Of a stretch of 64,000 bases of DNA, positions 13,601 to 63,272 are shown piece by piece. This DNA is from Liolophura sinensis. Taxonomy: Eukaryota; Mollusca; Polyplacophora; Chitonida; Chitonidae. The stretch covers positions 11,501,191 through 11,565,190 of the forward strand of contig NC_088300.1 of assembly GCF_032854445.1 (NCBI RefSeq). The letters are read 5' to 3'. The notes below the pieces were generated by a model. It searched no databases. It was given only the letters and a program-made list of their open reading frames with translations, and was not told where the DNA came from. A program made the position numbers and the translations under genes. How positions within the stretch are numbered: the stretch's first letter is position 1; every line of letters begins with the position of its first letter.

Positions 13601-16600
13601 AAATCTACATCCACAGAGAAGCCACTTCAAAGGTGGATTAAATCGGCATCCACAGAGGAGCCAGATCAATGTGATTCAAATTTACATCCAAAGAGGAGCT
13701 AGACCGAGTGTGGTTCAAATGTACATCTACAAAGGAGCCAGATCAATGTGATTCAAATGTACATCCACAGAGGAGCTAGACCAAGTGTGGTGCAAATCTA
13801 CATCCACAAAGGAGTCAAATCAAGTGATGTTTAAATCTACATCCGCAAAGGAACCAGATGAAGTGTGGTTAAAACCTATGCGCTAAATCCAGTGCGTAGC
13901 CCAAAACAATTTATGTTTAAAAGAGTGAAAAGGCCATATTTGTGTTGGACAAAATTTAATGCTGTGAAGCAAGAAAATGTAAAAAGGTATCTCAGTTAAG
14001 CTTCTCTGCAACTATTCATATAGGCATAGCGGTGGTTTTAAATCTGCGCTGTTTATACAGCCCCTAGCATGCCTAGCCCCAGGTTAAGCAAAATCAGATC
14101 ACACTTTCAAAGCACAGCGCCATGGACCTTCCAAGCTGCAATTATAAATGGTAATTAATGGTTGGATGGAGGCGTCTAATAATTAAGCACTGGTTTAGAA
14201 GTAATTCAAGAGCATATCCACGCAGGCAAAGGAAATGATATTCAAAGGCAAAGCATCCTGTAATACGTCATGAGTATAATGCTATGACACATTCTATGAT
14301 TCCAAGCAAACATGGAATGGGGGCCCCTCATCATAAACTCGAGCATGTATGGGTTTAGTTTTGAATCCCATGGTATACATAAAGTATATGAAGCGAAATG
14401 ATGTTGAATTGATGCCAGTTAAATTTGTTTCTTCTCCAGTTGATCTTAAAAAACAAACAGGCGATTATTAGGATGCTCACCTTTGACCCGGCAATATAGC
14501 CCCCTGCAGCTCCAAAACTTTTTGTGAATGTCCCCATCAGGATATCCACATCATTAGGGTCAGCCCCGAAGTAATCGACCACACCACGTCCTCGGGGTCC
14601 CATGGCTCCAACACTGTGTGCCTCATCTAGATAGAGGTAAGCCTTGTACTTGGTCTTCAGCCGAATCACTTCATCCAGACGCACAACAGAGCCCTCCATG
14701 CTGTGGATAGGCCGAGATACCGTCACATTAACATATCGTGCCTGGCACATGCAAATGCCTGGTGTCCTAACATTCCCACAACCATCTTTAAGTGATTCTG
14801 TCTTAACATTAAGCCAAAGTAGAAATGGCGGAATTTGTCTCGGTCCGATCTGTTAAACCTGCAAACCTGACCGTGATACCTTTTAAATTATCTATAATTT
14901 AGAAAAGCAATCCAGATTGCATCAGTCTATGATTTTCTTAAAACTTAAAGTCTTTTCCCCATTGGAAAATGTTGCAAACTGCATAAACTCATTTCGTGTT
15001 GCACCTGCATGAGAGAAGGTTTATTGTTACAACCTGCATAAAAAGTTCATTGCTACCACCTGCATGGGAAGGTTCATTGTTACAACCTACATTAGAAGGA
15101 TTTTGTGTTACAGCATGCTTGAGAGGATTCAATGTTGCAGCCTGCTTCAGGGGATTCGGTCTTACAACCTGCTTGAGAGAACTCAGTGTTACAACCTGCT
15201 TGAGAGGATTCAGTATTACAACCTGCTTGAGGGGATTCAGTCTTAAAAGCTGCTTGAGGGGGATTCAGTCTCGCAACCTGTTTGAGAGGATTCAGTATTA
15301 CAACCTGCTTGAGGGGATTCAGCCTTAAAAGCTGCTTGAGGGGGATTCAGTCTCGCAACCTGTTTGAGAGGATTCAGTATTACAACCTGCTTGATGGGAT
15401 TCAGTGTTACAACCTGCTTGAGGGGATTCAGTATTACAACCTGTTTGAGGGGATTAAGTCTTTAAAGCTGCTTGAGGGGGATTCAGTCTCACAACCTGCT
15501 TGAGAGGATTCAGTGTTACAACCTGTACTAGTGGATTGAGTGTTACAATCTACTTGAGAGGATTCAGTGTCACAACCTCCTTAAGAAGTAAAGAGGACCT
15601 GATATAAAGAGGACCATATAATGTCTGTCATCTCGGCCAGACCCCAGCAGCTACTGACACAAAGAGGAATGCGTGAGCTATGAAGACTGGTTTGTGACAA
15701 TGACCCTTCAGCCAATCAATACGTCAGTGGCAATTCACAGTTGTGCTCTCCAGGTATTACCAATCAATGGTGTTGAGCACCACACTCGTCAACAAATCTC
15801 AAAAGACAGCCTTTCATGTTCTACGACGGATACCAGTGCTTACGTTGAACCTTACGAGGCCACAAAGCACAGTTTTGCATAGCTGCAGCTACCTATAATA
15901 GGTATGTGCGAACAGTCCTGGCCAAAGCCATCGGTATTGGCAGAAGATTGTGCCGATATGCTCCCGTGAATACAGTTCTAGTATTTACCATCATTGCTGA
16001 TTTGCAGTGATTTGATGGAGGTTACTGTCACAATAAATTCACCCAGCTGATCCCAAGTTTACAACGATATGTCGTTTCCATTCTGAGCATGATGCCGATA
16101 ACACTTACCTGTAAACGCCTTCAACAACAATCAAGATTTTCTTCCATGGGCGATACGATCTGGGTTGACCTTGTGAGATGGATGTTTTCAAAACGTTCTC
16201 CAGATCAGTCATGTCTGTAATTAAAATTATCAAGGTTAGACTTGGCTTCCTGTCACTGACTTGCAGCAGCTGCCAGTAGCTCGAGTGTTCATGGGTAATT
16301 TAACGCTTAAGGATTTTTTACTTCTTCTCTCAGCAGCTCCAAAAGGACAGAGTGGGCAGATTTATTTTCCTACTGTTATCCACAGTTCCAAGTGAACACA
16401 GTGGGCAGATTTATTTTCCCCCTGTTCACCACAGTTCCAAGTGAACACTGTGGGCAGATTTATTTTATCCCTGTTCTAAACACTTCCAAGTGAACACAAT
16501 GGGCAGATTTATTTTATCTCTATTCTAAACACTTCCAAGTGAACACAGTGGGCAGATTTATTTTATCTCTATTCTAAACACTTCCAAGTGAACACAATGG

Positions 16601-19600
16601 GCAGATTTATTTCCCCCCTGTTCACCACAGTTCCAACTGAACACAGTGGGCAGATTTATTTTATCTCTGTTCTAAACACTTCCAAGTGAACACAGTGGGC
16701 AGATTTATTTTATCTCTGTTCTAAACACTTCCAAGTGAACACAGTGGGCAGATTTATTGAAGACAGGGCTGATAATAAATAACCGAAGAAAAATGAGAAG
16801 AAGCCGTACATCTCCGGTCATATCTGGCCATTTGTAAACTATCACACTGTCGTAGCTTCTCTGGTTTCATTTTCTATTCTCAGTCTTTAATATGCATGTT
16901 CCAAGTGACTACAGTGGGCAGACTCATTTTACACCTCTTCTCTACAACTCCAAGTGACTACACTGGGCAGATCTATTCTAATCTTTGTCTTCACAGTTCG
17001 ACGTGACCACAGAGGGCAGATGTTATTACTAGGGCATTCATAATAGGTCAGATGATGTTTGAGCCTGTTCACCACAGTTGCAAGAGATCAATGTGGACAG
17101 ATGTTATTACTAGGGCATTTATAATAGGTCAGATGATGTTTGAGCCTGTTCACCACAGTTGCAAGAGACCAATGTGGACAGATGTTATTACTAGGGCATT
17201 CATAATAGGTCAGATGATGTTTGAGCCTGTTCACCACAGTTGCCAGAGATCAATGTGGACAGATGTTATTACTAGGGCATTTATAATAGGTCAGATGATG
17301 TTTGAGCCTGTTCACCACAGTTGCCAGAGATCAATGTGGACAGATGTTATTACTAGGGCATTTATAATAGGTCAGATGATGTTTGAGCCTGTTCACCACA
17401 GTTGCAAGAGATCAATGTGGACAGATGTTATTACTAGGGCATTTATAATAGGTCAGATGATGTTTGAGCCTGTTCACCACAGTTGCAAGAGATCAATGTG
17501 GACAGATGTTATTACTAGGGCATTTATAATAGGTCAGATGATGTTTGAGCCTGTTCACCACAGTTGCCAGAGATCAATGTGGACAGATGTTATTACTAGG
17601 GCATTTATAATAGGTCAGATGATGTTTGAGCCTGTTCACCACAGTTGCAAGAGATCAATGTGGACAGATGTTATTACTAGGGCATTCATAATAGGTCAGA
17701 TGATGTTTGAGCCTGTTCACCACAGTTGCAAGAGATCAATGTGGACAGATGTTATTACTAGGGCATTCATAATAGGTCAGATGATGTTTGAGCCTGTTCA
17801 CCACAGTTGCCAGAGATCAATGTGGACAGATGTTATTACTAGGGCATTTATAATAGGTCAGATGATGTTTGAGCCTGTTCACCACAGTTGCAAGAGATCA
17901 ATGTGGACAGATGTTATTACTAGGGCATTTATAATAGGTCAGATGATGTTTGAGCCTGTTCACCACAGTTGCAAGAGATCAATGTGGACAGATGTTATTA
18001 CTAGGGCATTCATAATAGGTCAGATGATGTTTGAGCCTGTTCACCACAGTTGCAAGAGATCAATGTGGACAGATGTTATTACTAGGGCATTTATAATAGG
18101 TCAGATGATGTTTGAGCCTGTTCACCACAGTTGCAAGAGACCAACGTGGACAGGTTCTTTACTGGGGCTTTAATGATAGGTGTTAGATCGAACTTAATTT
18201 ACATGAAGGCAATAGAGTTTAACATTTGAAAACATAACATCTGCGTGTCACAGGGTAAAGCCACTTATTAAAGCAATCAATCATTGCACTCACCATTATG
18301 TTTGAATACTCTTATTGATGCCCCTGATAATCTGGCACCCAAAACCAAAGAGGAATGATTTAGTTCATCACTTACAATCAAGCAACCCTGCAAAAATAAC
18401 AAAGATTATTCGTCACTAACCACATTATATTTGTACATACCACACCATTTTTTGTTCCCCTCGCACCCACAGCGTACAGTCATACTGTTGTGTACATCCC
18501 TTCCCCTCACTCCCACAGCGTACAGTAATATTGCTGTCTACACCCCTCCCCTCGCTCCCACAGCGTACAGTCATATTGCTGTGTACATCCTTTCCCCTCA
18601 CTCCCACAGCGTACAGTAATATTGATGTGTACACCCCTTCCCCTCACTCCCACAGCGTACTGTAATATTGCTGTGTACACCCCTTCCCCTCACTCCCACA
18701 GCGTACAGTCTTATTGCTGTGTACATCCCTTCCCCTCACTCCCACAGCGTACAGTCTTATTGCTGTGTACATCCCTTCCCCTCACTCCCACAGTGTACAG
18801 TCTTATTGCTGTAGACACCCCTTCCCCTCCCCCCACAGCGTACAGTACTATTTCTGCGTACACCCCTTCCCCTCACTCCCACAGCGTACAGTCTTATTGC
18901 TGTGTACATCCCTTCCCCTCACTCCCACAGCGTACAGTATTTTTGCTGTAGACACCCCTTCCCCTCACTCCCACAGCGTACAGTACTATTTCTGTGTACA
19001 CCCCTTACCCTCGTCGTTTCCACAGCGTACAGTACTATTGCTGTGTAAATCCGTTACTGTCATATATTGAGCTGACCTCTTACCTTCTGTACTAGACAAG
19101 GGATGTTCATGGAGTTAGTGGCGAATCCCATAGGGAAGGTGATAGCAGCCTCCACGCCCAGAAATCGCGCCGTCAAGTTGTCCAGCTCGCGGTGAATCTT
19201 CTGATAACCTGCAGACAATAACAACACCATCAACCATCACGTAACACTACAGAACACCTGCCACAGCTTCATGTACAAGTAATATAGGCTACACCATATT
19301 TCGCTAACATATGAGGGTAGACAGATAAAGGGTGCGGCAAACAACCCAGTATCAAGATTGACAAGCCAAAGCTAAACCAACAAGGACCAAATTTCTTCAT
19401 ATTACCTCACTGGTCAAGGGAAGACAAACATGACAATCCACAGTTAAACCAACGTGGACTAAATTCTTCACATTACATCACGGAGCTTTCGTGGCTCTGT
19501 TGGTTCAGTTGGAGCCTCTCACCAATGCAGTCGCTGTGAGTTCAAGTCCAGCTCATGCTGGCTTCCTCTCCGGCAGCACGTCTGTCAGCAACTGGCGGAT

Positions 19601-22600
19601 GGTCGTGGGTTTCCCCGGGCTCTGCCTGGTTTCCTCCCACCATAATGCTGGCCGCTGACGTATAAGTGAAATATTCTTGAGTATGCGTGAACACCAATCA
19701 AATAAATAAATAAACAGATTCCATCACTGGTCAAGAGGGAACGAACATGATAAATATAAGCGTGAAGTCCGACATTCCTATACCATTCGTAGTCCGTAAA
19801 GGGCGTTCCACGTCGATAATCGCAAGATCCATTTCCAAAACAACGTTTAACACTAACTCCCAAAGACAAAGGTATGTAAGAAATTATACAAATAAGAAAT
19901 AAAGCCGGTAACACACAAGAGTGAAGCGGTCATCAGTTTTCATTGATGCCGGGCAGACAATGAACATTTCAGGCATGAATTCTATATTAAAGTTCAAATT
20001 CTTAGTCTGTGAATGAGTTCCATGTCAAATAACAATTAAATAAGTATCTCAGTCGCGCTTTAATTGCAACTGTTCATAAAGGCATCATGCTGATGTAATT
20101 AGCATGGCGACCTTTACGGCCCCTAGCCCCAGGTTAAGCCGTATTAGATACAGTTTGAAAATGACGGGCGTTACAGACCCTAACCGATCAGATTGTGATT
20201 CAAAAGTAACGGACGATTACGTCTTTCCCGTTAATATGTAAAGATCTCATGCTACAAGAGGCGCAATCTATGATGTTACACATGACATACAAGATAGACG
20301 GTTACACTGGGCAACCAGCGCCATCTATGTTGTTAAATGCCATGTACGTGATAGATATGTACATAGGGATAACAGCGCCGTCTATGTGGTTGATCACAAT
20401 GCAGATCGCCAGAGATTCTGAACGCTCTGTCCATACCTGCCAAGGAGAGTGTTATACTCATTGTAAAATTTGATAAACTTAGAATGAAGGCGTTTGATGG
20501 AGTATCCTTGACAAGCTAGTTTTTGAACTAGTAACTTGTGACGCAGATTAAAGTCATCACAATCAACGCAAGATCTGACAAATGCTACAAGGTGAGATAT
20601 GTATACGCCATATGCAGGACCCTTTGGTATATTGATATCTAAATAAGGATAATTTACAATATCAAAATTGAAATTATCCCTTTTGTCGTAAAGGCGGCGT
20701 GAAAGGAGTGAGTGAGTGAGTGAGTGCTTGGGGTTTAACGTCGTACTCAACAATTTTTCAGTCATATGACGACGAAGGAATCATTAGGGTGCATGCACGT
20801 GTAATTGTGCCTCCTTGTTGCAGGACGGATTTCCACCGCTCTTTTATTTAGTGCTGCATCACTGAGACGACTTACCGAAGGCAAGTAAGCCGCCCCGCCC
20901 GAGCCATTATACTGATACGGGTCAACCAGTCGCTGCACTATCCCCTTCATGCTGAACGCCAAGCGAGGAAGTTACAACTTCCTCTTTTAAAGTCTTAGGT
21001 GTGACTCGACCAAGGATTGATCCTGGATCTACCGGTCAGCGTGAAAGGAGACCTTGTTCGTCTTTGTACAGATATAGATCCAAATAAGATGTACCATCAG
21101 GGCTATCTGTTGTCTCCTTTAAATCCAATGAAGGCGGATAGATTTCCTTCACCAATAAGGTATTATTTAACGCCAGTAGATCATCAATATACCGCTTGGT
21201 AAATGAAAAGGATCGAGTTTTAAAGATATTACTTTTAAGTAATTTCTGCATATAGTCGTATTCATATGAAAACAGGTATAGGTCTGCCAAAAGAGGCGCA
21301 CAACTGGTACCCATTGGAATACCTATGCACTGTTGGTAAATGGTATCTCCGAATTTCACATAGATGTTATTAATGAGAAATTCAAGTAATTCAATAAATA
21401 ATGTAACATCCCATGAGTGGTAACCTTTATAAAGAGTAGAACAAAAGAAAGCCTTATTGCTTCTGACGTTAATGTAACGGTGACCTGTTTTAGTAAATAC
21501 CGAGACAATTAACGACGATATTCTTTCAATAAAATCTTTGTGAGGAATCGTAGTATAGAGAGTAGAGAAATCCCATGTGGATACGTCTTTGTACGGTATA
21601 TGCATATGAGCATCGAGTTCTTCTGTAAGACGTTTGGAGTTGTTAAGAATCCACATGCAGTTGACACCTGAATTTTTTGTTATGGCACAACAATAATTAT
21701 TCCAAAATGACTTTACTTCTTGTAACGCTCTCGTAAGTAGGGTTGACAAGAGTTTGGTGGAACAGCTTCTTGAACCTGCAATAAATCGAGCCTTGTATGG
21801 GGATTTATGCATTTTAGAAATCCAGTAAAGTTGTGGTATTTCTGTGTGACGGGTAGGTATATTTATGCGCCTTTCTTTAAGAAAGGTTTTGTGTTTGTTA
21901 AATAGTTCCTCCAGAGCATATGTAGTAGCAGAATACGTGGATGTCGTTGTAGACGCACATGGCTCTTGAACAAGAATTTGATAATAATAATTCTTGCAAA
22001 TAAAGATCACATTATTAGGAGCCTTGTCTGCTACAGTGATGACAAATTTACTATGAAGGTCAGCGAGTGTTTCCTGCACAGTGGCATCCTTCAGAACCTG
22101 TTTAACTTTAGGTAGAGCATCAATGTCTAGACGGTGTATAGTTAAACTAACTTTCTTTTTGACAATCTCAAGCCAATCGTTAAGTACAGAAGAATCCACT
22201 TTCTCCCGTTTTGACCATTTTTAAACATACTCCTCAAGCGCCGAGATGATATTTTTTTTGTTTGATCGAATGTTGACATTACTCTTTTCTCTATACTGAG
22301 GACCCCTCACAAAGCGATTCCTTAGATCATGATCCTTAATAATATTAAGGTCACCAGTCAGGACATGTTTACATTTGTCGTAGGTAAAAACTGAGGATTC
22401 ACAGTCACAGTTATAGCCGCCAGAAGTATACGTCGCCAAATCGAACTCCTTGATGGCCTGGGAATAATTGAAAATTTTGGAAGCGATAGGCTTTGTATAC
22501 TCATAGGATATGCAAGGTGGCTCTTGGATATTAAAATAATTAGGCACAGCACTACGAACATCAGGTTCATTAAAGATGCGTGGTTAATTAAATCAAGGCC

Positions 22601-25600: not shown

Positions 25601-28600
25601 AGTGTTTAAATGTGTCATCCTATCATAAACACAGTTTAAACACCTCACGCAGTAGTAGATATTTGGAGGTGTAAGTTTAAGACTTCTCTATGCGGGAGAG
25701 GGAGAGGAGAGAAGGGGTAGTCTGATGAGTGAGTGGGGGGGGGGGGGTTACCTTCAAGTGCTGCTCGTGACATGAACGATCTCTCTCCAGTCCGTACTTT
25801 CTCAAGAAATCGTGAATATGGCCCACAATCACCAGGATCAAATAGCTCATGTAGGTCAGCAAAGCTACTGTCAGCGGCGTCTCTTCAAACGTTTCGTGCA
25901 GAACTTTCTGAGGAGGTGTCTTCTGTAAGAATAAATATGTCAGTTATTAAAAGCCTTCATCGATAGTGTGATACTTTGTCAGCTTTACAGCCAGACATCA
26001 TCTGCACAAGAAGAAAGAACGACGTCGCGTCGTCACCGAAAAATCCCAATCACTGTTACATCTTTATGTGTTACTCAACTAACTATGACCTCCTCATCTA
26101 ATGTTAAATTGTAAAGAAGTTATACATTTACAAAATTTATTATACAGTGAAACTTACCGACACTTCTAAAAACCGAGATCTTGGCAATACGAGTCACTTA
26201 GTCCGTTGTTATACCTATTTACAACCAATGTTATTTTTATTGAACAAACCGACTCATGTATATTGTGAATACTGACAGGGATTTCTACTCCTCATTGTAT
26301 CTAATGAAAGGTACTCCTCTTCTCATTTTCGAGAGACAATTTTGTCAGTTACAATTAGGCACATTCAATTATAGATATGTAGCAATACTATCGTTTCTCC
26401 CCAGTTTTTCCACCTCATTACTTTTTCAACATTTAGGCAAAATATTTCCTGCACTTAATTCTAGCACCAAATTTTCCATCGCTATAACCGCAATACACCT
26501 TGCTATCTGTGTAACAGTAGGACAATAGCGCAATTCTCTCACTTCACACTCTGCTTCCTTGATAACTGCTTCGTTTGTCTCTTATACTTTACAGCATGTT
26601 CTCCGTAAATTGCTTTATTCCTCTCTTATATTTCACACACTATTCTCTGTACAACAGCAGGACAATTGCCACAGTCCTCTCACACTTCGCACCCTACCCC
26701 CTGTATAACAGCAGGACAATTGTCACAGTCCTCTCACACTTCGCACCCTACTCCCTGCATAACAGCAGGATAATTGTCACAGTCCTCTCACACTTCGCAC
26801 CCTACTCCCTGCATAACAGCAGGACAATTGTCACAGTCCTGTCTCACTTTGCACCTTGCTCCCTGTATAACAGCCAGACAATTGTCACAGTCATTTCTCA
26901 CTTGCACCTTGCTCTCTGTATAACAGCCTGACAATTTTCACAGGCATGTCTCACTTTGCACCTTGCTCTCTGTATAACAGGCGGGAAATTGTCTCAGTCA
27001 TCTCTCACTTTGCACCTTGCTCCCTGTATAACAGCAAGACAATTGTCACAGTCCTGTATCACTTTGCACCTTGCTCCCTGTATAACAGCCGGGCAATTGT
27101 CACAGTCCTGTCTCACTATGCACCTTGCTCACTGTATAACAGCCTGACAATTGTCACAGTCATTTCTCACTTTGCACCTTGCTCTCTGTATAACAGCCTG
27201 ACAATTTTCACAGGCATGTCTCACTTTGCACCTTGCTCTCTGTATAACAGGCGGGAAATTGTCTCAGTCATCTCTCACTTTGCACCTTGCTCCCTGTATA
27301 ACAGCAAGACAATTGTCACAGTCCTGTATCACTTTGCACCTTGCTCCCTGTATAACAGCCGGGCAATTGTCACAGTCCTGTCTCACTATGCACCTTGCTC
27401 ACTGTATAACAGCCGGGTAATTGTCTCAGTCCTGTCTCACTATGCACCTTGCTCCCTGTATAACAGCCAGACAATTGTCACAGTCATTTCTCACTTAGCA
27501 CCTTGCTCTCTGTATAACAGCCTGACAATTTTCACAGGCATGTCTCACTTTGCACCTTGCTCTCTGTATAACAGGCGGGAAATTGTCTCAGTCATCTCTC
27601 ACTTTGCACCTTGCTCCCTGTATAACAGCAAGACAATTGTCACAGTCCTGTATCACTTTGCACCTTGCTCCCTGTATAACAGCCGGGCAATTGCCACAGT
27701 CCTGTCTCACTATGCACCTTGCTCACTGTATAACAGCCGGGTAATTGTCTCAGTCCTGTCTCACTTTACACCTTGCTCACTGTAAAACTGCATTGCAATT
27801 GTCATCACAGCACATGTGCTTGATATTGCATTAATTAATACGATCATTTTCTCTGACAATTACCCTCCTGCATCGAAGTACAAGTTCATAAAAAACTTTA
27901 TTTTTAATAAAAAAGTTTGAGAAATGAGGCCGACGTAACTCATGCATTTCTGAGTCTGACCGATATATATATATATGTATATATTGTATAAATATTTCCC
28001 AAGGCAAAAACCCAGGGCAATGACACACGTGGAATGTCCGCTCAAGCGTGAGATTTGACCTCGCCTGCGCATGTTGATATTTGAGGTCGTCTAAGAGCTA
28101 CCTTTTGAAGACAGTAGCTCACCTTGCGGATTTTATAATCAAAAACAAATCAGTGCTATGACAATTAGCATGATTTCATTGAAAACAATAAAAGGCCCAT
28201 GGATTTAATACGGAATGAATATCTACATTGACTGCACAGGCCTGTATCAGCCTGAGATGAGATTGTTATCTATAATTAACCTCCATAGCTTAATTTCAGA
28301 ACTTAGACGTTGCCCTCAATTGAAACATGTCACACAAGAAAAGTTAATCTTACGATGAGGACTTTTTGTTGTAATGCATTACAAGTTTCTTGCTTATCAG
28401 TTAGGGCCATGTTGTAGATATAGTCTGGCCTAATAATGCAGATAGGTCTATTGACATAAAATGGTGGGTTTTTCACCAGTTAGTTGGTGCATTTGTAATC
28501 CGGTTCACTAAAAACAGTGCCTAAAGTAAGAAGTCATATTTCCGGTTCTAACGTATGTTGCATGAAAATACAGCCTTTACACTACAACAAAAATAGACTG

Positions 28601-43329: not shown

Positions 43330-45203
43330 TTTAATCCGGGGCTATAGGGCTGTATATTCATCCGCGTGTTGAATTAGCTCGCCATACACAAATAGCTGCA
43401 GTCGAAGCGCAACTGGGATACACATATATTATTATCGACAACAGTTTGAATACTGACTTCACTCATTCCACTAGAGTATACGTTGCTTGTTTCCAACATC
43501 ACTGAAATCTGTTGACTGCTTCTATGTTAATGATTCGGTCCTATCTGTGTACTTTACATAAATCTTTCTTATTAATTGGAAAGACAACTTTAAAATAAGG
43601 ACTGCGAATGGTATAGGAATGTCGGATTTGACGCTTATATTTATAACCTGTGCATGCCCCGATTCTGCTGGTGGTTTTTGACCCCGAGGCGAGGCCTCTG
43701 CACAATTATACCAATAGCTATGAACTACAAAAACATGCATAGGACTAACGCTGGGAATAGTGGTGCATGTTCCCAGGGCGAGTCAATAAATGAATCGTTT
43801 GCACTAAGACCCATTTCTATCCAAATACCGGATATATTTGAGAGAATTAAACATGGTATTCCCACCAAACCGTGTTCTATCCAACTGAACGATTGTTTGA
43901 CATTGAATTCCCAAAGCAAACATTTAACTATTTCCAAATGCGGACATACCAATTGTCTTACATGTCCATCATTTGATACATCCGCCACTTTTATTTCCTC
44001 ACTGACTGGTAAATGTTATTCTGTTAATTCCTACGTTAACTTAAGTCGTATTGCGTCCAACTGTATTTACTTGGTAACATGCAAGAAGTGTGGTCAGCAG
44101 TATGTTGGGAAGACCACCCAGAAACTATACTTACGGGTGAACGGGCACCGTAAGTCCGTGCGCAAGAAACACTTGCTAATAGGCAAGCATTTCTCTGCCT
44201 CCGACCATGACTGGGACCATTTCAGCATTCAAATAATAGAATCGGTTTATCCATCAACAAATGAGACTGATGTCGAATTTGAACGTAAAATCCGTAACCG
44301 TGAGCTTTTCTGGATGGTAGAGATTGGTTCAGTCTCCCCATATGGGTTGAACGATAACGTTATGGGAATCGGCAATGTAACATCTAGCCAACCATATGAC
44401 TCCATCGTAACAAATTTATTCAAATACCATAAACTTAGACCTCGCAGTCATGGTAAGAGAAAGTTCAACAGAAACATGATTCACAAACACGTTACAGTTA
44501 GCTATTTAGTAGGATTGTCGTATGACACCAATAGCATGCATGCTCTACGCACAGTATTGTATGCACTGCCATTGAACGTGCTAAAACAGGTCGTTCAAGA
44601 CGTATCCAATAACATACACAATTTTAATGTTCCACCTCACCTTGTACGTCTGTGTCAAGACATATCGTATTTTCGATTGTATCGCCCTGTAACTACAATT
44701 GAAACTCAACACGATCGACTCTTTCTGAAGATAAAGTATTTAGACAGTGGCCTTGATTTAATTAGCCTACCACGCATCTTTAATGAACCTGATGTTCGTA
44801 GTGCTGTGCCTAATTATTTTAATATCCAAGAGCCACCTTGCATATCCTATGAGTATACAAAGCCTATCGCTTCCAAAATTTCAATTATTCCCAGGCCATC
44901 AAGGAGTTCGATTTGGCGACGTATACTTCTGGTGGCTATAACTGTGATTGAGTCCTCAGTTTTTACCTACGACAAATATAAACATGTCATGACTGGTGAC
45001 CTTAATATTATTAAGAATCATGATCTAAGGAATCTCTTTGTGAGGGGTCCTAAGTATAGAGAAAAGAGTAATGTCAACATTCGATCAAAAAAAAAAATAT
45101 CATCCCGGCCCTTGAGGAGTATGTTAAAAATGGTCAAAACGTGAGAAAAAGGATTCTTCGGTACTTAACGATTGGCTTGAGATTGTCAAAAAGAAAGTTC
45201 TAA
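43330..45203 (+). mobile_element. Naiad-type Penelope-like retroelement, 3'-truncated copy with endonuclease
   Basis: About 320 bp of 5' terminal repeat (43330-43650) precede the ORF and match the region beyond the RT of the 19.7-22.6 kb copy, including 'ctgcgaatggtataggaatg' at about 43602. The ORF carries the endonuclease and linker. Homology to the other copy ends at 45202 inside the first RT codons, so the RT is missing. Together the two copies cover the full Naiad plan, each lacking the other's half; they overlap for about 460 bp with high identity. Confidence 0.85.
43654..45144 (+). CDS. Naiad ORF: N-terminal GIY-YIG endonuclease plus damaged CxC linker
   Basis: 496 open codons. A Cys pattern, CGHTNCLTCPSF, precedes a GIY-YIG nuclease: CIYLVTCKKCGQQYVGKTTQ at residue ~136, then LYLRVNGHRKSV (catalytic-type Arg) and FSASDHDWDHF. 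A CCHH-type zinc arrangement is visible. The nuclease would nick target DNA for retrotransposition. N-terminal position of the nuclease is the hallmark of Naiads; canonical Penelope elements carry it C-terminally. The linker is misread: a 1-bp deletion in the T run at ~44880 and a 2-bp deletion at ~44950 cancel, so the frame survives but residues between them, including CxC, are replaced by shifted sequence. Another indel near 45090 alters the end. The start codon is uncertain: the first ~30 codons overlap the terminal repeat. Confidence 0.85.
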   Translation: MPRFCWWFLTPRRGLCTIIPIAMNYKNMHRTNAGNSGACSQGESINESFALRPISIQIPDIFERIKHGIPTKPCSIQLNDCLTLNSQSKHLTISKCGHTNCLTCPSFDTSATFISSLTGKCYSVNSYVNLSRIASNCIYLVTCKKCGQQYVGKTTQKLYLRVNGHRKSVRKKHLLIGKHFSASDHDWDHFSIQIIESVYPSTNETDVEFERKIRNRELFWMVEIGSVSPYGLNDNVMGIGNVTSSQPYDSIVTNLFKYHKLRPRSHGKRKFNRNMIHKHVTVSYLVGLSYDTNSMHALRTVLYALPLNVLKQVVQDVSNNIHNFNVPPHLVRLCQDISYFRLYRPVTTIETQHDRLFLKIKYLDSGLDLISLPRIFNEPDVRSAVPNYFNIQEPPCISYEYTKPIASKISIIPRPSRSSIWRRILLVAITVIESSVFTYDKYKHVMTGDLNIIKNHDLRNLFVRGPKYREKSNVNIRSKKKISSRPLRSMLKMVKT

Positions 45204-45929: not shown

Positions 45930-48312
45930 TCCATAGGGTAGAATGTCAATATATTGTAGGATGTCCTTCTAGTGAAGAATGTCATAATATGTAGAATGTC
46001 CATGTTGTGTATGATGTCCTTATGTTAAAGAATTTCAGAATAGGGTGGAATGTCCATGTTGTGCAGGATGTCCTTCTAGTGAAGAATGTCAGAATAGGGT
46101 AGAGCGTCCGTGTTGTGCAGGATGCAAGAATAGGGTAGAATGTCCGTGTTGTGCATGATGTTCTTGTTGTGCAGGATGCCAGAATAGGGTAGAATGTCCA
46201 CATATTGTAGGATGTCCTTATGGTGCAGCATGCTAGAATAGGATAGAATGTCCATGTAGTGAAGGATGTCCTTGTGGTGCAGAATGCCAGAATAGGGTAG
46301 AATGTCCATTTAGTGTAGAATGCCCTGGTAGTGAGGAATGCCAGAATAGGGTAGAATGTCCATGTAGTGTAGGATGTCCTTACGATGCAGCATGCCAGAA
46401 CAGGGTAGAATGTCCATGTTGTGCGGGATGTCTCTATAGTACAGAATGCAAGAATAGGGTAGAATGTCCATGTAGTGAAGGATGTTCTTGTAGTGAAAAA
46501 TACCAGAATAGGACAAAATGGTCATGTAGTGTATGATGTCATTGTAGTGAAAAATGCCAGAATGGGGTAGAATGTCCATGTTGTGTGGGATGTCCTTACA
46601 GTGCAGCATGCCAGAACAGGGTAGAATATCCATGTAGTGTAGAATGCCCTGGTAGTGAAGAATGCCAGAATGGGGTAGAATGTCCATGTTGTGTAAGATG
46701 TCCTTACAGTGGAGCATGCCAGAACAGGGTAGAATGTCCATGTAGTGTAGAATGTCCTTATTGTGCAGCAAGCGAGAATAGGGTAGAATGTCCATGTTGT
46801 GCAGATGTCCTTATTGTGCAGAATGCCAGAACAGGGTAGAATGTCAATGTAGTGTAGAATGTCCTTATTGTGCAGCAAGCGAGAATAGGGTAGAATGTCC
46901 ATGTTGTGCAGATGTCCTTATTGTGCAGAATGCCAGAACAGGGTAGAATGCCCATAGTAGTGAGGAATGCCAGAATAGGGTAGAATGTCCATGTAGTGTA
47001 GATGTCCTTATTGTGCAGGATGCCAGAACAGGGTAGAATGCCCATAGTAGTGAGGAATGCCAGAATGGGGTAGAATGTCCATGTTGTGCAGATGTCCTTA
47101 TTGTGCAGGATGCCAGAACAGGGTAGAATGCCCATAGTAGTGAGGAATGCCAGAATGGGGTAGAATGTCCATGTTGTGCAGATGTCCTTATTGTGCAGGA
47201 TGCCAGAACAGGGTAGAATGTCCATGTTGTGCAGATGTCCTTATTGTGCAGAATGCCAGAACAGGGTAGAATGTCCATGTAGTGTAGAATGCCCATAGTA
47301 GTGAGGAATGCCAGAATAGGGTAGAATGTCCATGTAGTGTCGGATGTCCTTACAGTGCAGCATGCCAGAACAGGGTAGAATGCCCATAGTAGTGAGGAAT
47401 GCCAGAATAGGGTAGAATGTCCATGTTGTGTAGGATGTCCTTACAGTGCAGCATGCCAGAACAGGGTAGAATGTCCATGTAGTGTAGAATGCCCTGGTAG
47501 TGAGGAATGCCAGAATAGGGTAGAATGTCCATGTTGTGCAGATGTCCTTATTGTGCAGAATGCCTGTATAAGGTAGAATGTCCATGTAGTGTCGGATGTC
47601 CTTACAGTGCAGCATGCCAGAACAGGGTAGAATGCCCATGTAGTGTAGAATGCCCTGGTAGTGAGGAATGCCAGAATAGGGTAGAATCTCCATGTTGTGT
47701 CGGATGTCCTTACAGTGCAGCATGCCAGAACAGGGTAGAATGTCCATGTAGTGTAGAATGCCCTGGTAGTGAGGAATGCCAGAATGGGGTAGAATGTCCA
47801 TGTTGTGTAGGATGTCCTTACAGTGCAGCAAGAGAGAATGGGGTAGAATGTCCATGTTGTGCAGATGTCCTTACTGTGCAGAATGCCTGTATAAGGTAGA
47901 ATGTCCATGTAGTGTCGGATGTCCTTACAGTGCAGCATGCCAGAACAGGGTAGAATGTCCATAGTAGTGAGGAATGCCAGAATAGGGTAGAATGTCCATG
48001 TTGTGTCGGATGTCCTTACAGTGCAGCATGCCAGAACAGGGTAAAATGTCCATGTAGTGTAGAATGCCCTGGTAGTGAAGAATGCCAGAATGGGGTAGAA
48101 TGTCCATGTTGTGTAAGATGTCCTTACAGTGCAGCATGCCAGAACAGGGTAGAATGTCCATGTAGTGTAGGATGTCCTTATTGTGCAGCAAGCGAGAATA
48201 GGGTAGAATCTCCATGTTGTGCAGATGTCCTTATTGTGCAGAATACCTGTATAAGGTAGAATGTCCATGTAGTGTAAGGTATCCTTGTAGTGGAGAATGC
48301 AGAATGGGTAGA
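45930..48312. repeat. Large minisatellite, 54-bp unit built of three 18-bp subunits, ~44 copies
   Basis: A typical unit is gaatgtccatgtagtgta, gaatgccctggtagtgag and gaatgccagaatagggta: three diverged 18-mers, each beginning gaatg(t/c)c. Some units lack or duplicate a subunit. Since 18 and 54 are multiples of three, both strands show long periodic ORFs up to 275 codons. These are Cys-rich on the + strand and His/Tyr-rich on the - strand, and are artefacts. Confidence 0.96.
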
Positions 48313-48345
48313 AATTTGCATCGTTGTATCACAGGTTTCTAACAG

Positions 48346-48693: not shown

Positions 48694-48923
48694 CGTGTGA
48701 CTGGGAAAATCAGCTCGACTAGAACTTCTGTGCGGAACCATTGACTCAGAGACCTGTATATGGGATTTATTCTGTTTTGTTTTTTTTTTTTAAATTTGTA
48801 AATGAGAGAATTGTCTCTTCATTTGACAGTTCAGTCGAACTATTTTGTATTCCAGTAATGGCGGCTTTTCCCATGCGAATCGAGATGTTAAGAGGCATAT
48901 GTTAATCATTTTTAATGTATTGA

Positions 48924-49046
48924 TTTATTTATTTGATTGCTGTTTTACGCCGTACTCAAGAATATTTCACTTATACGACGGCGGCCAGCATTATGATGAG
49001 TGGAAACCGGGTAGAGGCCGGGGGAAACCCCCGACCATCCGCAGGT
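48924..49046 (-). mobile_element. SINE family A, 5'-truncated (duplicate copy 1)
   Basis: Tail and core only, from 'tttatttatttgattgctg' to 'gaccatccgcagg'. Target duplication tttttaatgtattga at 48909-48923 and 49047-49061, so it is a genuine truncated insertion that predates the 288-bp duplication. Confidence 0.88.
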
Positions 49047-49211
49047 TTTTTAATGTATTGAAATAATGTAATATTTAAAATACTGTACAATGAGAGAATT
49101 GTCTCTTCATTTGACAGTTCAGTCGAACTATTTTGTATTCCAGTAATGGCGGCTTTTCCCATGCGAATCGAGATGTTAAGAGGCATATGTTAATCATTTT
49201 TAATGTATTGA

Positions 49212-49334
49212 TTTATTTATTTGATTGCTGTTTTACGCCGTACTCAAGAATATTTCACTTATACGACGGCGGCCAGCATTATGATGAGTGGAAACCGGGT
49301 AGAGGCCGGGGGAAACCCCCGACCATCCGCAGGT
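49212..49334 (-). mobile_element. SINE family A, 5'-truncated (duplicate copy 2)
   Basis: The same insertion, carried along by the 288-bp tandem duplication. Confidence 0.88.
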
Positions 49335-49376
49335 TTTTTAATGTATTGAAATAATGTAATATTTAAAATACTGTAC

Positions 49377-51699
49377 AATGTGATCCCATCATCTTAAAAT
49401 TTTACTTTGCTTAGTGATTTTTTGCAAGTTGTAAAATATTGCTAGATTAGAAGATGCCTTAACATTTATGATGTGAAGTGTCTGGAACATAATTCTTAAA
49501 AGTGTTAATCTGACAGTAAGATTATTAGATGTCAACTTCAATAACACTAAAAATAAATATTAATTTAAAAGTATTAATCTGTATATACAGAATTTCAGTT
49601 TTATGAGCGTGATTACCATCAAGTAATCAATCAGCAAGGATTTTCTAGAATCTTTGACCTGTGACTTGGTATCTTAGAGGAAATTCTAGGGTTTCATAAG
49701 ATTAGAAGCCTCGATTAATTACATTAATTAATAGTGATATGGAAACATTAGTCTTACTTGCATACTTATTTTCATAAATAGAAAGGACGTAGAGAAACAG
49801 TGTATCTCTATGATATGAACTCAGTAATCATTGCAGTAATCACTGCCATTGTTTAGTGTGGATAATGTCCACATCTGAATGAGGAAGAAGTGGATTGGGT
49901 AAGTCTTGTCTCGAACGCAGACCTTCAGAAATATGACATATACAACATAAATACCATTGGCTAAAACGTTTAGGTGTTTTAAATGAGGAAGAACTGTAAA
50001 AACGAAATGAGCAACAGTAGAAAGACTACTGGACTGTGCCTGAAAATAGATCATTTTACCTTAAATACAGTCAAATGTTTTGATTATATGGTGGACTCTA
50101 TGGAGCGTAATGTATTTCTTTTTACACTTTATGTTCATTTCCGAATAACATTCCTCGACTCGCGCAGTGTGTGCCAGTGCTTTCAAAAGCAAATCTTATC
50201 TTAAATACTTGTTTCATGTTAAAAGTTGCTGTGACGTCATTGACCACATATACATGATGAATATGGCCCATAAAGCTAGTCGCACAGTCGAAATATTTTC
50301 TAGTTTACTCCATGAAAACACATATTTAAAAACAATAAGTATAAGGACTTTCAGACAATGTTTCCAATCGTCTTTCCATTGATCTTTATTTCACTTTTGC
50401 AGTTTCATTCTCTTTAAAAGTATGCTCCAGTACAGAAAGTTTGATAGCAAAACACTTTAAAATACAGCTAGAATGTCAGACATATACATCACATTCGTAA
50501 ACAAACGGCTAAGCAACTATGAGACATGGGATTATATATCTTATTCATCATCCCTCACTGTACTGCGGTATTACACCCAAGGGCAATAAAAGGAATTATG
50601 AATATGACGTTAAAGCCTGAACATTGGGGGATCAGTGTGTTATTTCTGGGACTAATATGCGAGGATAAAGACACAATGTTAACCCCAGGTTATTTCGTCA
50701 ATAACTTAAGTTCCAACAGAGCGACAAGTGATAAAGAACAAAATTTACTGAAATGTATGTTTTATTATTCAGTATTCTTTGATTTTCTGTCATTATTTAG
50801 ATTAGATATTTATCTAGTTTCTTTAATTATTCCGAGTATTTACGCCAGCTTATGAAGACAGGGCATCCTTACACGCTTATCTGCATGAATGGCTTCAAGG
50901 GAAATGTAGACGTACAACACATATTCCAAAGCCGATCATAATACTGTAAAACACATAATATCGGGGAGATAACTCAACGAGTGGAATCTGTTAAAACCTT
51001 TACTTTTCATCCGATTATCTCCCCTTATATCCCAACTTTGTAACTCTATAATTGGATTTTTTGCTTATACTATTTTTAAAAAAAGCAGAAGACCTCAGTT
51101 AGCAACGCGAGAGCCTGCCAGAAACTTTAATACTAGCAGAAAAAAATAAAAGCTTTAAGAAAGGCTCGACATACTGTGAAAAAAACTTGTCGTAAGCATT
51201 CAAAATAAAATGAAGCATAACACGGGTGTATTTCTTCGGGTGCCAGCTCAGTCCAGTGTGAAAATTCACTAGAAACCTGTGTTCGTCTTTATTCTGTAAC
51301 TAGCTTATCGTCGTACTGCTATAAAACTTTTGCCTATTACAATGTAGGTATAACACGGCTGCGTAAAACTATCCATCCCACATGTACTGCACTTATAGAT
51401 GGAATTGAATTTGTCACGTGAATCTTGCCATGACGCATGTGGGTTTTTTTTATTGTTTGTGTATATTAAAAACGTTCGAAACTCATTAGATAATCAGTCA
51501 AGTTAAGTCCTTTCTATTAATCAATGGACCAGTGTGGGCTTATCAGCCAATTTTCAACCACAAAGGTAACAATGTGCATATACCTAAATTTCCATATATG
51601 ACACGCCAATTATCCAGGGTGTATGCCCTCTTTGTGACGGCAGTGGGGCATGTCGATTTGCGTCTGTCCGTTTTTTGTCCGTCGGTATTCGTGCTGAAT
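49377..51699. other. Unassigned AT-rich region
   Basis: ORFs of 60-110 codons exist on + (for example 50526-50855, hydrophobic near its end), but none has recognisable motifs or a convincing splice context. No repeats stand out. Confidence 0.4.
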
Positions 51700-57746: not shown

Positions 57747-57928
57747 CGGTGTTAGACTGAGCAGAAAACGAGTGCTAAGTCAGCTTCGCATACGCTAGAA
57801 ATCACCGTCTTGGATATTGATACTGCTGGGGTTGGAACAGTTTGCATCGCGGAAAACATTCGTTTTATTTAGCATGAAGGTATAAAAAAGTGAGTTTTCA
57901 GTTGGAATCTTTCCCCCCACATATATAT

Positions 57929-58381
57929 GGCCACAGACCCCCATTAGTTTTCCATAAGCGACAATGTTAACGTTTAGCGCTGTAGCTCAGTCCCAAACAT
58001 TCCGAGGCCAATAAGCTTTGGTGCATACCTGGCCCAGCCTGTGAGAAAGAAGCTGTAAAAATCTTGACATAGGTTGACCGTCAAAATCTGGACCTTTCCA
58101 TGCCGGCAGCTGGGAGGGGTGCCTAGCAACGCCAAGGGGACGTCACTCGCAGCCTCATCACCACCTGTCTCCTTGTGTCCTCTCGCTCAGAATTTCAAAC
58201 TTTCACCATTAAAACTCATACCTGCCCAAAGCTTAGACAATTTCCATCATTTTGATACCAAGCATGCACCTGTACACCAAAAACGGCAGGCTGGCAGCAA
58301 AAAAAGACTTTACACCCTAAAATACACAGAACTACAATCGTCCCTACCGAAAAACGGAAGTTGTAATGGGGGTCTGTGTCC
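57929..58381. repeat. 453-bp terminal direct repeat, left copy, with terminal inverted repeats
   Basis: Identical by eye to 60839-61291. It begins ggccacagacccccattag and ends with the near-complement gtaatgggggtctgtgtcc (two mismatches in 19). Its internal ORF is open but has no recognisable domain. It could be a MITE-like unit or one LTR of a larger element. Confidence 0.9.
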
Positions 58382-60838
58382 TATCACACCAGCCAACTTT
58401 TTTCAAAATCAATAATTTTTGCACCACATAATGCTTACTACCTCTAAACCTCACACATAAAGTTACAGCTTGATACATGCAAAAACTTTTGAGTAGGAGG
58501 GATTTGACTTGGGGTACCCCTATCTTGGAAATGTGTCTGTTTGTCCGTCCTCAAGCACGAAGTTCAAAGCTCTGTAGTGCACATACCGTTCAAAATATCT
58601 CAACCAGGTCAAATGTTTTGGAAAGCTGGTATGTACATCTGCAAGAAAAATGAAAAAATTCCAATGACAAAGTATTTTACATTTTCCACTGACAAACATT
58701 TAGAAAATTATGGATTTTCAAGTAGATTTTCTTGTTTACAGCAGTGTTAAGAAAATACTTAAAAGCCAAAAGTGTCAAAATATATATCAAAAGACAGGTA
58801 ATTTATCTGACAATTCACTTACAAAATATAGGACATACCTTTTAGCAACTTTGTGCAAAATTTGACTTAAAGTGATACAGGTGGGTAGCAAAGCGGAGTT
58901 TCAAAATTCCAGAAAAGTACATTTTGATCACCATCAAAGTAAACATATGCATCCAAATTGATATAGAAAGGCTCATAGGCACAGTTTCCATGGATAGGGC
59001 TAAAGAAAAGACTAGTATCCCTTTCACATAGTGATTCAAATGATAAAACCCTTTAAAAGATCACCCACTACCCCTCCCCCCCCCCACCCCCCACTACCCC
59101 CCTTTTCCGTCTCCCCCATGGCTGCCATTGGTTGGCTGGCTTACCTCAACTCACAGTGCAAAAGAATCCCACCACCTGTGTTGTTGCCTCAGACTAAATT
59201 AGTACTTTCCACATAACAAACACCAAAGTGTGACACTGGCATCTACAAGAGATAAGTAGAGGGGAGAAATATGAATTTGCCACTTACAAAAATAAAGCCA
59301 CACAGTACATCCACATTGGTCATTCAGACAGTCAGCAAGGCAACCCTCCCAAGACATGTTGAAGGGACTCAAGAAGAGGGGAAAAGCTATACTTTTTAAC
59401 CTGTAACAACACAGAAATCCTCAAATAATCAGTGAGAAATTACATCCGTAATCAGGTTCCACACTGGGTGTTCCTGGGTGGGCATGAGGAATGGACATTC
59501 AAACTGTCCGTAAATATGAGAAACCTGTGACGTTTCCCCGGTTGGGGGGGGGGGGGGCTGGGGGGCTGGAGGGGTATGTGTCATGGTGTAGTACCGGACC
59601 AATGACGGGGATTCTAGGTCGGCCAAGGGAGTGGAAGACTGCATCCGAATGGTCAGGCCTTTGAGGAAGCTGAACGGCTAGCAGACCCCACTCACCTAGG
59701 TAGATCCCAGTTCAATATATGCATAAACCAGGCAAAGTTCACTGACGCCATGTTTGGGAGACAAGATCTAAAGAGGGAAACCAAGACGAAAGCTCAGTAG
59801 GTATTAAACTAGGATGTGAAAGCCATATGTAGCTGTCTAATTTCTAACTTGTGTGTGAGGACATTGGAAACATAAAAAAAATCCCAGTTGCCCAGGGAGG
59901 TGGATGCCACACTGGGCCAGATACTAAAACAAAAACTCCTTGAGATGTCGCAGGAACAGCGTACTATGTCCTGGTGGAGAAACAGACACCTGGTGGGGCA
60001 GAGACTCATTTTCACAAGGGCAATATTCCAACAGATCACACTTACATGTATGCTAGAAACTTGAAATTGATCATTTTTGTTCCAACGCCATACATACTGT
60101 GTGAGTGCACATGTAACTTGTCAGAGGAATGAATATACACATGCAATGAAAACTACATGCATACAGTGGTTTATTTTTAAGTTTAAAGAGGAAAATTTAC
60201 CCTGTCCACTTCAAATCTATGCCCAAAACAGCAGACAGTGTTGCAGCAGAGATGCCTGTTTTTAATGTTTTGTGACCTGCAGGATGATTTGAAGCACATT
60301 TACCTAGTGTGTGGTGGCACACATGGGAGGAACCTGACTTGGTTTGTAAATTAAATGCACACTGGCCCTCTCTACTACTCTAGCCAAGTAAATTAATCTG
60401 CTGATGTGTTTTTATCCACCTGTGTGAGGCTGGGCCCTTATATGTGATGCAAGGCCTTATTGACCATCCTTAATCACACCACCCTATCTATCAGCCACAT
60501 ACTCCAATTTCACTCGCAGCACTCAAATTTTGCATTATTTATCAAATGTCAGCCCCAAAAGAGACATTTTAAAAACCAGGAACAATGAAACGTTGTCTGT
60601 GTTTGTTCCAGTCTGTTTATACTCCTGTACTACCCTTGACCACAGAGCGTTTTAGCCGATTTTTAGACAAAATGGATATGTGGGGAAAATATAGAATTAA
60701 AAAGCTTTAAAACTGCTCAATCAAGTTCCATGTCAATGCAAACCACATCGCAGATGTACCCACCAAATATTATCAGGCTGCTGCGAAATCTGAGCACACA
60801 GTGACATATTACATGTTTTGGCACAAGTGGACAGATCA
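58382..60838. other. 2.46-kb interior between the 453-bp repeats, unknown content
   Basis: No RT, integrase, transposase or other long ORF is visible. It includes a C-rich stretch near 59078-59102 and a G14 run near 59545. Just inside the left repeat there is no obvious tRNA primer site, and no strong polypurine tract precedes the right one. Confidence 0.5.
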
Positions 60839-61291
60839 GGCCACAGACCCCCATTAGTTTTCCATAAGCGACAATGTTAACGTTTAGCGCTGTAGCTCAG
60901 TCCCAAACATTCCGAGGCCAATAAGCTTTGGTGCATACCTGGCCCAGCCTGTGAGAAAGAAGCTGTAAAAATCTTGACATAGGTTGACCGTCAAAATCTG
61001 GACCTTTCCATGCCGGCAGCTGGGAGGGGTGCCTAGCAACGCCAAGGGGACGTCACTCGCAGCCTCATCACCACCTGTCTCCTTGTGTCCTCTCGCTCAG
61101 AATTTCAAACTTTCACCATTAAAACTCATACCTGCCCAAAGCTTAGACAATTTCCATCATTTTGATACCAAGCATGCACCTGTACACCAAAAACGGCAGG
61201 CTGGCAGCAAAAAAAGACTTTACACCCTAAAATACACAGAACTACAATCGTCCCTACCGAAAAACGGAAGTTGTAATGGGGGTCTGTGTCC
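60839..61291. repeat. 453-bp terminal direct repeat, right copy
   Basis: Same sequence and orientation as the left copy, offset by exactly 2910 bp. The outer flanks read '...atatat' at the left and 'atatac...' at the right, allowing a 4-bp duplication ATAT around the whole 3363-bp unit. Confidence 0.9.
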
Positions 61292-63272
61292 ATATACTTT
61301 GTAAGAGGGATTACTTCCGGCGCCAGCACTGATGTTAGGTAAATAGGCGATGAAGCGAGGCGGTGGTCTTCACGAGTTAATGACTATTCCAGCCACACTT
61401 CCAGTACAAGGGACTTTGCATTCGGGCCTATACGAAACAAAACACAAAGTAAAAAAGGCGACTGAACTGGACAGAAAAAAAGCTAATTTTTTTGCTGTCT
61501 GATTTTCATGACGAATGGGGGGCGAAACGCAAACGGAATTTCGAAAATCTCTTAGATCTCAAAAAGAAAGCTTATGTTTCCAAATCTATCGTCCTCAGGA
61601 AAATCATTAGACTTGGGATATAAGAAAAAAGATTCAAACGACCTTTTGAGTAAAAAATAGTAAATTATTTATGTGGAAGGTTTCAATAGATAAATCTTGA
61701 TTTCGCAAAACCTTCGAAAACTTCTAACTATTTAACCTTGTTGCAGAACTTGTAGGGTCGTACCAATGTGAGAAAACGTCACTCAATCGGAAGGGACGCA
61801 CAGCTGGCGCGAGAAGTAGGCGAAAAAAAAGTGGAGCTATTTTCTAATTAGCCAAATGTAGTATCCAGATAGAACTATCGCCCTCTTACAAATTTACACC
61901 GTGAAAAACCTGTCAAAAATGGACCCGGCAAAGGAAACTAATTTACAGGATTTCGTCGATTACTTTCCAAGCCCCAGCGAGAGACTACAAATCTATTGAG
62001 ACCTTGTCAACGGACGAGTCTTTTTTTTTTTTTTACCGTTCACTCTCCCCATATAGTCGTCTGGTGTTAAGATAGTCCTGCAGAGATTTACACACACTTT
62101 CTCTGTCCTTCACATATTTGTATATGCTCTCTTAAGAGAACGTAGATGTAGTCTCATGACCACGTGTGTTAATTGGACAAAGTAATAATAACGGGCAAGC
62201 CAAGGGAGGTAACTTTCCTATTTTCTAAGGATAATCATATTGCGTGAAATAACTTACACTAGGTACCTAAAGATTCAGTTTTTAAGTTCAGTAAAATGCA
62301 TTGTGTACACAGAAACATGAAGGCAGTACATTTTAAGACAATTTATTGAATTATGTACTATCACTGAAAACACTCGTAATGGCAAAAGAATTTGCTACAC
62401 ACAAAGGGACAAATTCAACACATAGATGGAGAGGATGGGACAAGGATTGATTAACGTTTAATATGCCCTCAGGTCTAAATGTAACTCATATGTACATGTA
62501 TCCAGTTAACTGTGCTATCCAGAACGTCCCATTATCCGCACTGCCGTACAGACTTTTGATTTATTGTCTCAGGGAAGTATTTTCAACAGCATCAACAACA
62601 TAGTTTTAACTTCTGAGACTCCACCTACACACGAAGGCGTATAGTGAGCTTTGGTTGATTCAGATATTGATGACTATAAAAAAAATAATGATTACATTTT
62701 GTGTCATGCTTTCTTAGTACTTGTAAACTGTTTTACACTGTATTTGAACTTCAGTAATTAACCCTGTGTAGACAGCCATGCAACATGTTAATAAATGATG
62801 GCGAACACATACACACTTTCTTGCACACAAGACAATATATTCTGTATTCTCCAAAACAACAATTAAAACCAGAATGATAGCTTAACATGGACAAATGTGC
62901 TATTATATCTTGACATTGGATAATATCCAAAATATCTTTCTTACATTTTTTATGAGCGTACTGCTAATAGGATTAGATTTAGTCAAATTAGCGGACATAT
63001 TTCTTTGCTGATAAATAAGTGCTTTACCGAAAATGATTGTCATAAACTAAGTAAATGTAAACTGTCTATTCAGTATGAACAAATCTGAGCAGAACTCTTT
63101 GGAAGACATATTGCAATTTTTAGGAAAGCATTTTTAGCATTTTATTCTTGAAACAAATGTACATTTTACACCACGATTTTTACAGAAGAAAGTTGTTTCC
63201 AATCCAAATATTGTACATTTCTGTGGAAATGATATGTCTTCCACACTGTTGCTTTAGTTATACTTTTAACAG
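61292..63272. other. Unassigned
   Basis: A 26-codon + ORF at about 61918-61998 (starting MDPAKETNLQDFVDYF) has a plausible start context but no further support. Otherwise nothing is recognised. Confidence 0.35.

Follow-up and report, generated by a model that had tools for sequence, protein, structure and literature searches.

KolobokP is a group of animal DNA transposons with the look of LTR retrotransposons (Kojima & Bao 2022, PMC9587614). The sections of that paper drawn on here describe long terminal direct repeats (LTDRs) of about 450 or 660 bp, each with its own terminal inverted repeats (TIRs) of 11–18 bp. Ends follow the pattern 5'-RR..YY-3', target-site duplications (TSDs) span 3–5 bp, and target preference is not strong. 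The transposase is of the DDD/E kind, with a DxxH motif, a zinc finger before the last E, and a CCHC finger after the first D. Autonomous copies also encode an antisense His-Me nuclease. Known forms include non-autonomous copies, solo LTDRs, multimers, and junctions at which one internal region (INT) meets another minus 3–4 bp. In these sections, the molecular pathway is called unknown, a circle is discussed, nuclease-induced unequal crossover is proposed, and how the ends stay alike is left open. A second system of relevance is bacterial. According to the portion of PMC6952201 drawn on here, copy-in by the IS26 family from a molecule carrying one IS yields directly oriented IS copies and an outer target duplication.

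Here, we focus on a unit of the KolobokP layout in Liolophura sinensis. The window is a stretch of 64,000 nucleotides (C6:11501191-11565190) within a 609-Mb genome of 632 contigs; L-numbers below denote individual loci. A sequence-only reading of the window had reported two identical 453-bp direct repeats around a 2457-bp interior, and both the coordinates and the identity were confirmed. Also as reported, the repeats end in GG..CC rather than TG..CA, and ATAT lies at both outer edges of the roughly 3.36-kb unit and is absent from the inner LTDR–INT junctions. The inverted ends bounding each LTDR, given in that reading as 19 bp and near-perfect, are indeed near-perfect, with 17 matches, over a length of 18 bp. 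None of 20,000 shuffles of the 453-bp repeat reached 17 matches. By eye, no tRNA-type primer site or polypurine tract was seen beside the LTDRs. When the two flanks of the unit were joined and searched against the genome as a would-be empty site, the matches were to those two flanks only. Neither ARAGORN with the bacterial code nor Rfam at gathering thresholds returned anything within the window. The features of the unit are as follows.

57925..57928, no strand: target-site duplication, left copy (ATAT), 4-bp repeat at the outer edge
57929..58381, plus: left LTDR, 453 bp, 100% identity to 60839-61291
57929..57946, plus: outer TIR of the left LTDR, starts GG, 17/18 complementary to 58364-58381 and 61274-61291
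58364..58381, minus: inner TIR of the left LTDR, ends CC, from inverted-end comparison
58382..60838, plus: INT, decayed derivative of an autonomous KolobokP interior, from co-linear blocks against the INT of L128
58382-59484, 59562-60002, 60018-60216, 60219-60821: INT blocks aligned to L128, 59.5-71% identity
59259-59474, plus: N-terminal transposase piece, weaker (tblastn of P0001, E=0.001)
59580..60011, plus: broken transposase remnant (P0001 residues 377-520; tblastn, combined E=3.4e-30, three pieces)
60308..60562, minus: broken His-Me finger nuclease remnant (tblastn of P0002: 60379-60483, E=9.8e-5; 60308-60562, E=0.037)
60839..61291, plus: right LTDR, 453 bp, 100% identity to the left LTDR
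60839..60856, plus: inner TIR of the right LTDR, from inverted-end comparison
61274..61291, minus: outer TIR of the right LTDR, from inverted-end comparison
61292..61295, no strand: target-site duplication, right copy (ATAT), 4-bp repeat at the outer edge

Although no transposase had been visible in the sequence-only reading, and none is present as an intact frame, the INT does contain a broken one. Specifically, the remnant at 59580-60011 is interrupted by stops and frame changes. Against the 3685-bp INT of the related unit L128, the window INT aligns in four co-linear blocks. The window INT is the decayed remnant of a transposase gene together with an antisense His-Me nuclease gene. The window unit cannot encode its own transposase and is non-autonomous.

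Coding relatives exist in the same genome. They were found through sampled LTDR–INT junctions; looking for such a partner with a TIR 13-mer followed by a different continuation gave 16 matches versus 12 in the reversed control. Junction sampling revealed LTDRs that start GGCCTCGG, are mostly 90–93% identical to the window LTDR, and lead into the same first INT bases as in the window, with no second LTDR at 2.9 kb. Three units of this type (L128, L129, and L130) were read through. In L128, two 453-bp LTDRs, 100% identical, flank the INT, and the relatives' unit measures about 4.59 kb; pair identity is 98.7% in L130 and 96.9% in L129. L128 has a 689-codon open frame whose product belongs, by a match with E=1.5e-77, to the Pfam family PF20700 (“Mutator-like transposase”). 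That is its only Pfam match, with no reverse transcriptase or integrase. The autonomous transposase displays D282, the D within TTDGD (383-387), DPTH at 412, a C4 finger (491-506), the E within KCEAVNR (563-569), and a CCHC finger (327-349). On the antisense strand, L130 carries a 139-codon frame that matches PF05551, the homing-endonuclease zinc-binding loop, at E=6.4e-4, which is below the curated cut-off. This frame has an SH..HNTRC motif that we take to resemble that of I-PpoI. PDB sequence searches with the transposase (P0001) and the nuclease (P0002) yielded nothing up to E=1.

Many of the transposase genes remain intact. Among the 78 match rows listed, which come from 65 of 565 candidates scored, 24 span residues 1-689 stop-free at 98–100% identity, six of them in two tandem clusters. 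The autonomous INT, which ends in GTACA, joins an LTDR at 59 places in the genome. At C9:31864209-31878671, tandem autonomous units hold four stop-free transposase frames at a spacing of 4132 bp. At C12:29087029-29092841, two stop-free frames lie 3746 bp apart, less than the length of an LTDR plus an INT.

Set beside the published account, in the sections drawn on here, the match is close. The identical 453-bp LTDR pair compares with about 450 bp, the 18-bp TIRs and GG..CC ends fit the 11–18 bp and RR..YY pattern, and the 4-bp TSDs, varied in sequence, fall within 3–5 bp. DDE residues, DPTH, the zinc finger, and the CCHC finger are all present in the autonomous relative, while the window retains only a broken remnant. 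Solo LTDRs, multimers, and INT–INT junctions that lose bases occur here too. We find no difference in kind, the comparison with published families being by description rather than letter by letter. Architecture, motifs, and Pfam place the window unit, very probably, as a young non-autonomous KolobokP, a decayed deletion derivative of an autonomous family whose intact genes reside in the same genome. The unit had been put forward as undescribed; the kind is already known, as KolobokP was described in 2022 (PMC9587614, in the sections drawn on here), and the window copy adds a member. The proposal of a non-autonomous LTR-like element held for both adjectives and failed for a retroelement, as the unit descends from a DNA transposon of the DDE kind.

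Copies of the family are abundant. At least 40 scored matches emerged from the genome search with the LTDR (2091 first-look candidates) and at least 52 from that with the INT (39 of 542 candidates scored). By exact pattern, the whole genome holds 327 left LTDR ends and 169 LTDR-to-INT junctions, arrays counted in. We read 20 full units besides that of the window (L001-L020), 20 solo candidates (L021-L040), and seven array stretches, and additionally 40 solo candidates from the exact-match list (L048-L087) and both sides of 20 further units. From these last 20, three (L110/L111, L114/L115, and L122/L123) joined the full-unit count; 14 right-hand regions gave no match and are mostly parts of longer units. 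Full units, solo LTDRs, multimers, and arrays are all dispersed in the genome. Most of the solo LTDRs, which were taken in order of coordinate, have diverged from that of the window. Because other loci hold full units and solo repeats with different 4-bp duplications, the window pair is no isolated assembly accident.

The duplications show that units insert as wholes. A perfect, locus-specific 4-bp duplication flanks 21 of the 24 full non-autonomous units; when partners are shuffled between loci, the mean is 1.5 and the maximum 7. This result bears out the suggestion that the 3.36-kb unit inserted once, with a 4-bp duplication, and supplies the full-unit copies with fresh duplications that had been proposed as a check. 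It also eliminates the notion of two separate MITEs, since the whole repeat-interior-repeat unit recurs with outer duplications. The three remaining units are L016 and L017, which have no duplication, and L006, which lies in a dimer on C2; TACT occurs at both outer sides of the dimer if one left-tip base was lost. Autonomous pairs have perfect 4-bp TSDs in 12 of 16 cases; the right LTDR is incomplete in L096 and L108, and L104 and L126 have no TSD. Duplication sequences vary, with first and last bases tending to A and T.

Solo LTDRs with duplications of their own, the other check proposed, were likewise found. Among 43 solo LTDRs, 26 have perfect 4-bp duplications, seven have one mismatch, and 10 have none (shuffled partners: mean 1.3, at most 7). 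The count excludes 17 of the 40 loci L048-L087, which are truncated, beside an INT, or rearranged. L037 was scored as having none owing to an indel, yet TGCT lies on both sides; the duplication of L075 is 5 bp; and L022/L023 and L080/L081 are mutual duplicates. Such TSDs are predicted both by independent MITE movement and by loss of the INT.

At some right LTDR ends, TATC, the first bases of the INT, follows without the INT: in L022/L023, L039, L070, and L137 (the right LTDR of L126), and also at C1:45112028, C9:31747688, and C9:31808492. Where both sides were read, these LTDRs have no perfect TSD. TATC with a non-INT continuation occurs four times (two look duplicated), and TATA, TATG, and TATT jointly twice. 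The numbers are small; excision at a point just within the INT may have left this TATC as its footprint.

INT–INT junctions invite another account of the family's identity. On this view, a MITE, the 453-bp repeat, would have inserted into a 2.44-kb satellite, and that array would have given rise to the composite. ATCA, present once at the INT–INT join, is exactly common to these junctions, as the TSD of an inserted repeat would be. However, the coding INT ends in GTACA, the INT has an extra T at its start, and the INT–INT monomers are nested in the tree among LTDR-bearing ones, their 21 exact junction matches being confined to six contigs (C7, C22, C321, C587, C620, and C625). The same loss of 3–4 bp is moreover recorded at INT–INT junctions in the sections of PMC9587614 drawn on here. 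We drop this account, which is highly unlikely, because of the coding INT end and the nesting of the monomers; the gene remnants in the INT also refute it. That the unit is a non-autonomous LTR retrotransposon with unusual ends, of the TRIM or LARD type, is barely conceivable: identical or alike direct repeats, solo repeats, short TSDs, and tandem units resemble such elements, but the repeats bear 18-bp TIRs and GG..CC ends, no tRNA-type primer site or purine tract was seen by eye, nor any other retroelement hallmark, and the DDE transposase in coding relatives and its remnant within the window unit refute the reading.

How do the two LTDRs of a KolobokP unit stay alike? We compared alleles between the LTDRs of each unit. 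The non-autonomous set comprised 21 units, namely the window and 20 others, 19 from best-match lists and L020 from the exact-match list; the sample leans toward window-like copies. The autonomous set comprised 16 pairs with both LTDRs fetched, the right LTDR being incomplete in L096 and L108. Within units, LTDRs differ by a mean of 2.5 in the non-autonomous set, versus 7.2 when permuted, and by 3.0 versus 6.6 in the autonomous set; in each, 0 of 20,000 permutations did as well. Concordant cells at informative sites number 315 of 335 in the former and 107 of 108 in the latter, a count that hides L108 because its differences are private within the autonomous set. Minor alleles carried by at least two units occur in both LTDRs 46 times and in one LTDR 20 times in the non-autonomous set (L017-L020 account for 16 of these 20), and 25 times and once, respectively, in the autonomous set. 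Pairs free of substitutions make up 12 of the 21 and 8 of the 16 units. Between units, same-side distances are equal or nearly equal to cross-side distances (sums recomputed and consistent: 1498 + 1621 = 3119). Thus, there are no left and right LTDR lineages. Given the alleles common to both LTDRs, we infer that in most units the pair descends from a single LTDR, and that the cycle usually passes through a stage with one LTDR. In the sections of PMC9587614 drawn on here, allele sharing within LTDR pairs is not discussed, and its use as a test of the KolobokP pathway may be new.

The exceptions are the older units L017-L020, discordant at shared sites, and L108; one or two shared sites per unit are also discordant in L003, L015, and L016. 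A single crossover of an array-type LTDR with a different LTDR would account for L018 and L019, both of which have INTs belonging to the array clade. In L108, the left LTDR matches the window type at 97.6% identity, and the right LTDR matches the autonomous type at 98.0% over 297 bp. These three look like recombination hybrids and suggest LTDR–LTDR recombination as a second route.

Plain composite cut-and-paste does not predict this concordance, in which shared mutations have reached both LTDRs in the younger lineages. Concordance fits copy-in, excision from fresh multimers, and early gene conversion alike, and these data do not separate the three. We tentatively favor, with less than even confidence, the hypothesis of a eukaryotic copy-in, by which KolobokP would multiply through circles bearing one LTDR, because it requires no multimer and because the arrays read lie on another branch than the young units. 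In outline, the transposase of the autonomous family would act in trans on the outer-end TIRs of a non-autonomous unit. An LTDR–INT circle with one LTDR would insert by a copy-in, cointegrate-like process. Insertion would replicate the single LTDR into two identical direct copies and duplicate the 4-bp target outside the unit. To our knowledge, a route of this kind is described from bacteria only. The IS26 cointegrate, as presented in the portion of PMC6952201 drawn on here, has the KolobokP layout found here: the joined DNA lies between direct repeats, with a target duplication outside them. IS26 differs in being bacterial and in having its transposase gene inside the IS, whereas here the gene lies in the INT.

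A possible, though somewhat doubtful, alternative is that LTDR-INT-LTDR is cut by ordinary cut-and-paste from recently expanded multimers whose neighboring LTDRs are alike. Multimers and arrays do exist in the genome, and the C2 dimer has TACT on both outer sides, with one lost left-tip base allowed. Yet in the tree, the array copies read share a branch with the diverged units L017-L020, away from the young units. The sampled arrays are therefore not the source of the young units; unassembled or unsampled multimers could be. In one array (L043 and L044, C26:289000-313907), six complete repeats were read, and in five of them the first 33 bp, including the left TIR, are missing; the array thus appears to be fixed for the shortened form.

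Plain cut-and-paste followed by homogenization of the LTDRs through gene conversion, perhaps started by the His-Me nuclease, is unlikely. In its favor, a nuclease is encoded, and nuclease-induced unequal crossover is the proposal of PMC9587614 noted above. The window INT carries 18 private substitutions and the window LTDRs none between them, a disparity that could reflect sparse sampling or conversion. Against this, 32 of the 52 within-unit LTDR differences are private, many of them in older units; thus, conversion is not continuous.

Recombination of an LTDR–INT circle with a resident solo LTDR, restoring the composite (model b1 in the sections of PMC9587614 drawn on here), is quite improbable. 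As a general route it is already unlikely: the mostly diverged solo LTDRs would leave diverged outer halves, whereas most units are concordant. The sequence-only reading had offered a circle recombined into a MITE, which fails as the general route because the two LTDRs of most units share alleles. It may hold for L018 and L019, whose hybrid pairs accompany array-clade INTs, and for L108, which joins two LTDR subtypes; all three look like such products.

If copy-in does operate, a DDE transposase would yield an LTR-like look with no RNA intermediate, and each jump would recreate the composite structure. On any of these routes, a puzzling LTR-like repeat is settled, very probably, as a KolobokP transposon, in a genome where the family looks young and many intact transposase genes remain. 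Allele sharing between LTDRs offers other KolobokP genomes a simple test of how the two ends stay alike.

Elsewhere in the window, other features are apparent. A 516-codon open frame on the plus strand (43594-45144) has a GIY-YIG domain (PF01541, E=1.3e-5), reminiscent of the endonuclease part of Penelope-like elements. A 394-codon open frame on the minus strand (21036-22220) gave no match in a Pfam search; by eye, we take it to resemble a Penelope-like reverse transcriptase. Minisatellite arrays at 17017-18181, 26647-27788, 45933-48313, and 48797-49380 are built of units of 81 bp, of 54 bp, and of related kinds, and some have one frame open; the minisatellite regions include a 288-bp unit in two copies at 99%. 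Finally, the stretch 14355-14852 on the minus strand looks like an exon of a gene, probably of the host, for a class I/II aminotransferase (PF00155, E=4.1e-13).
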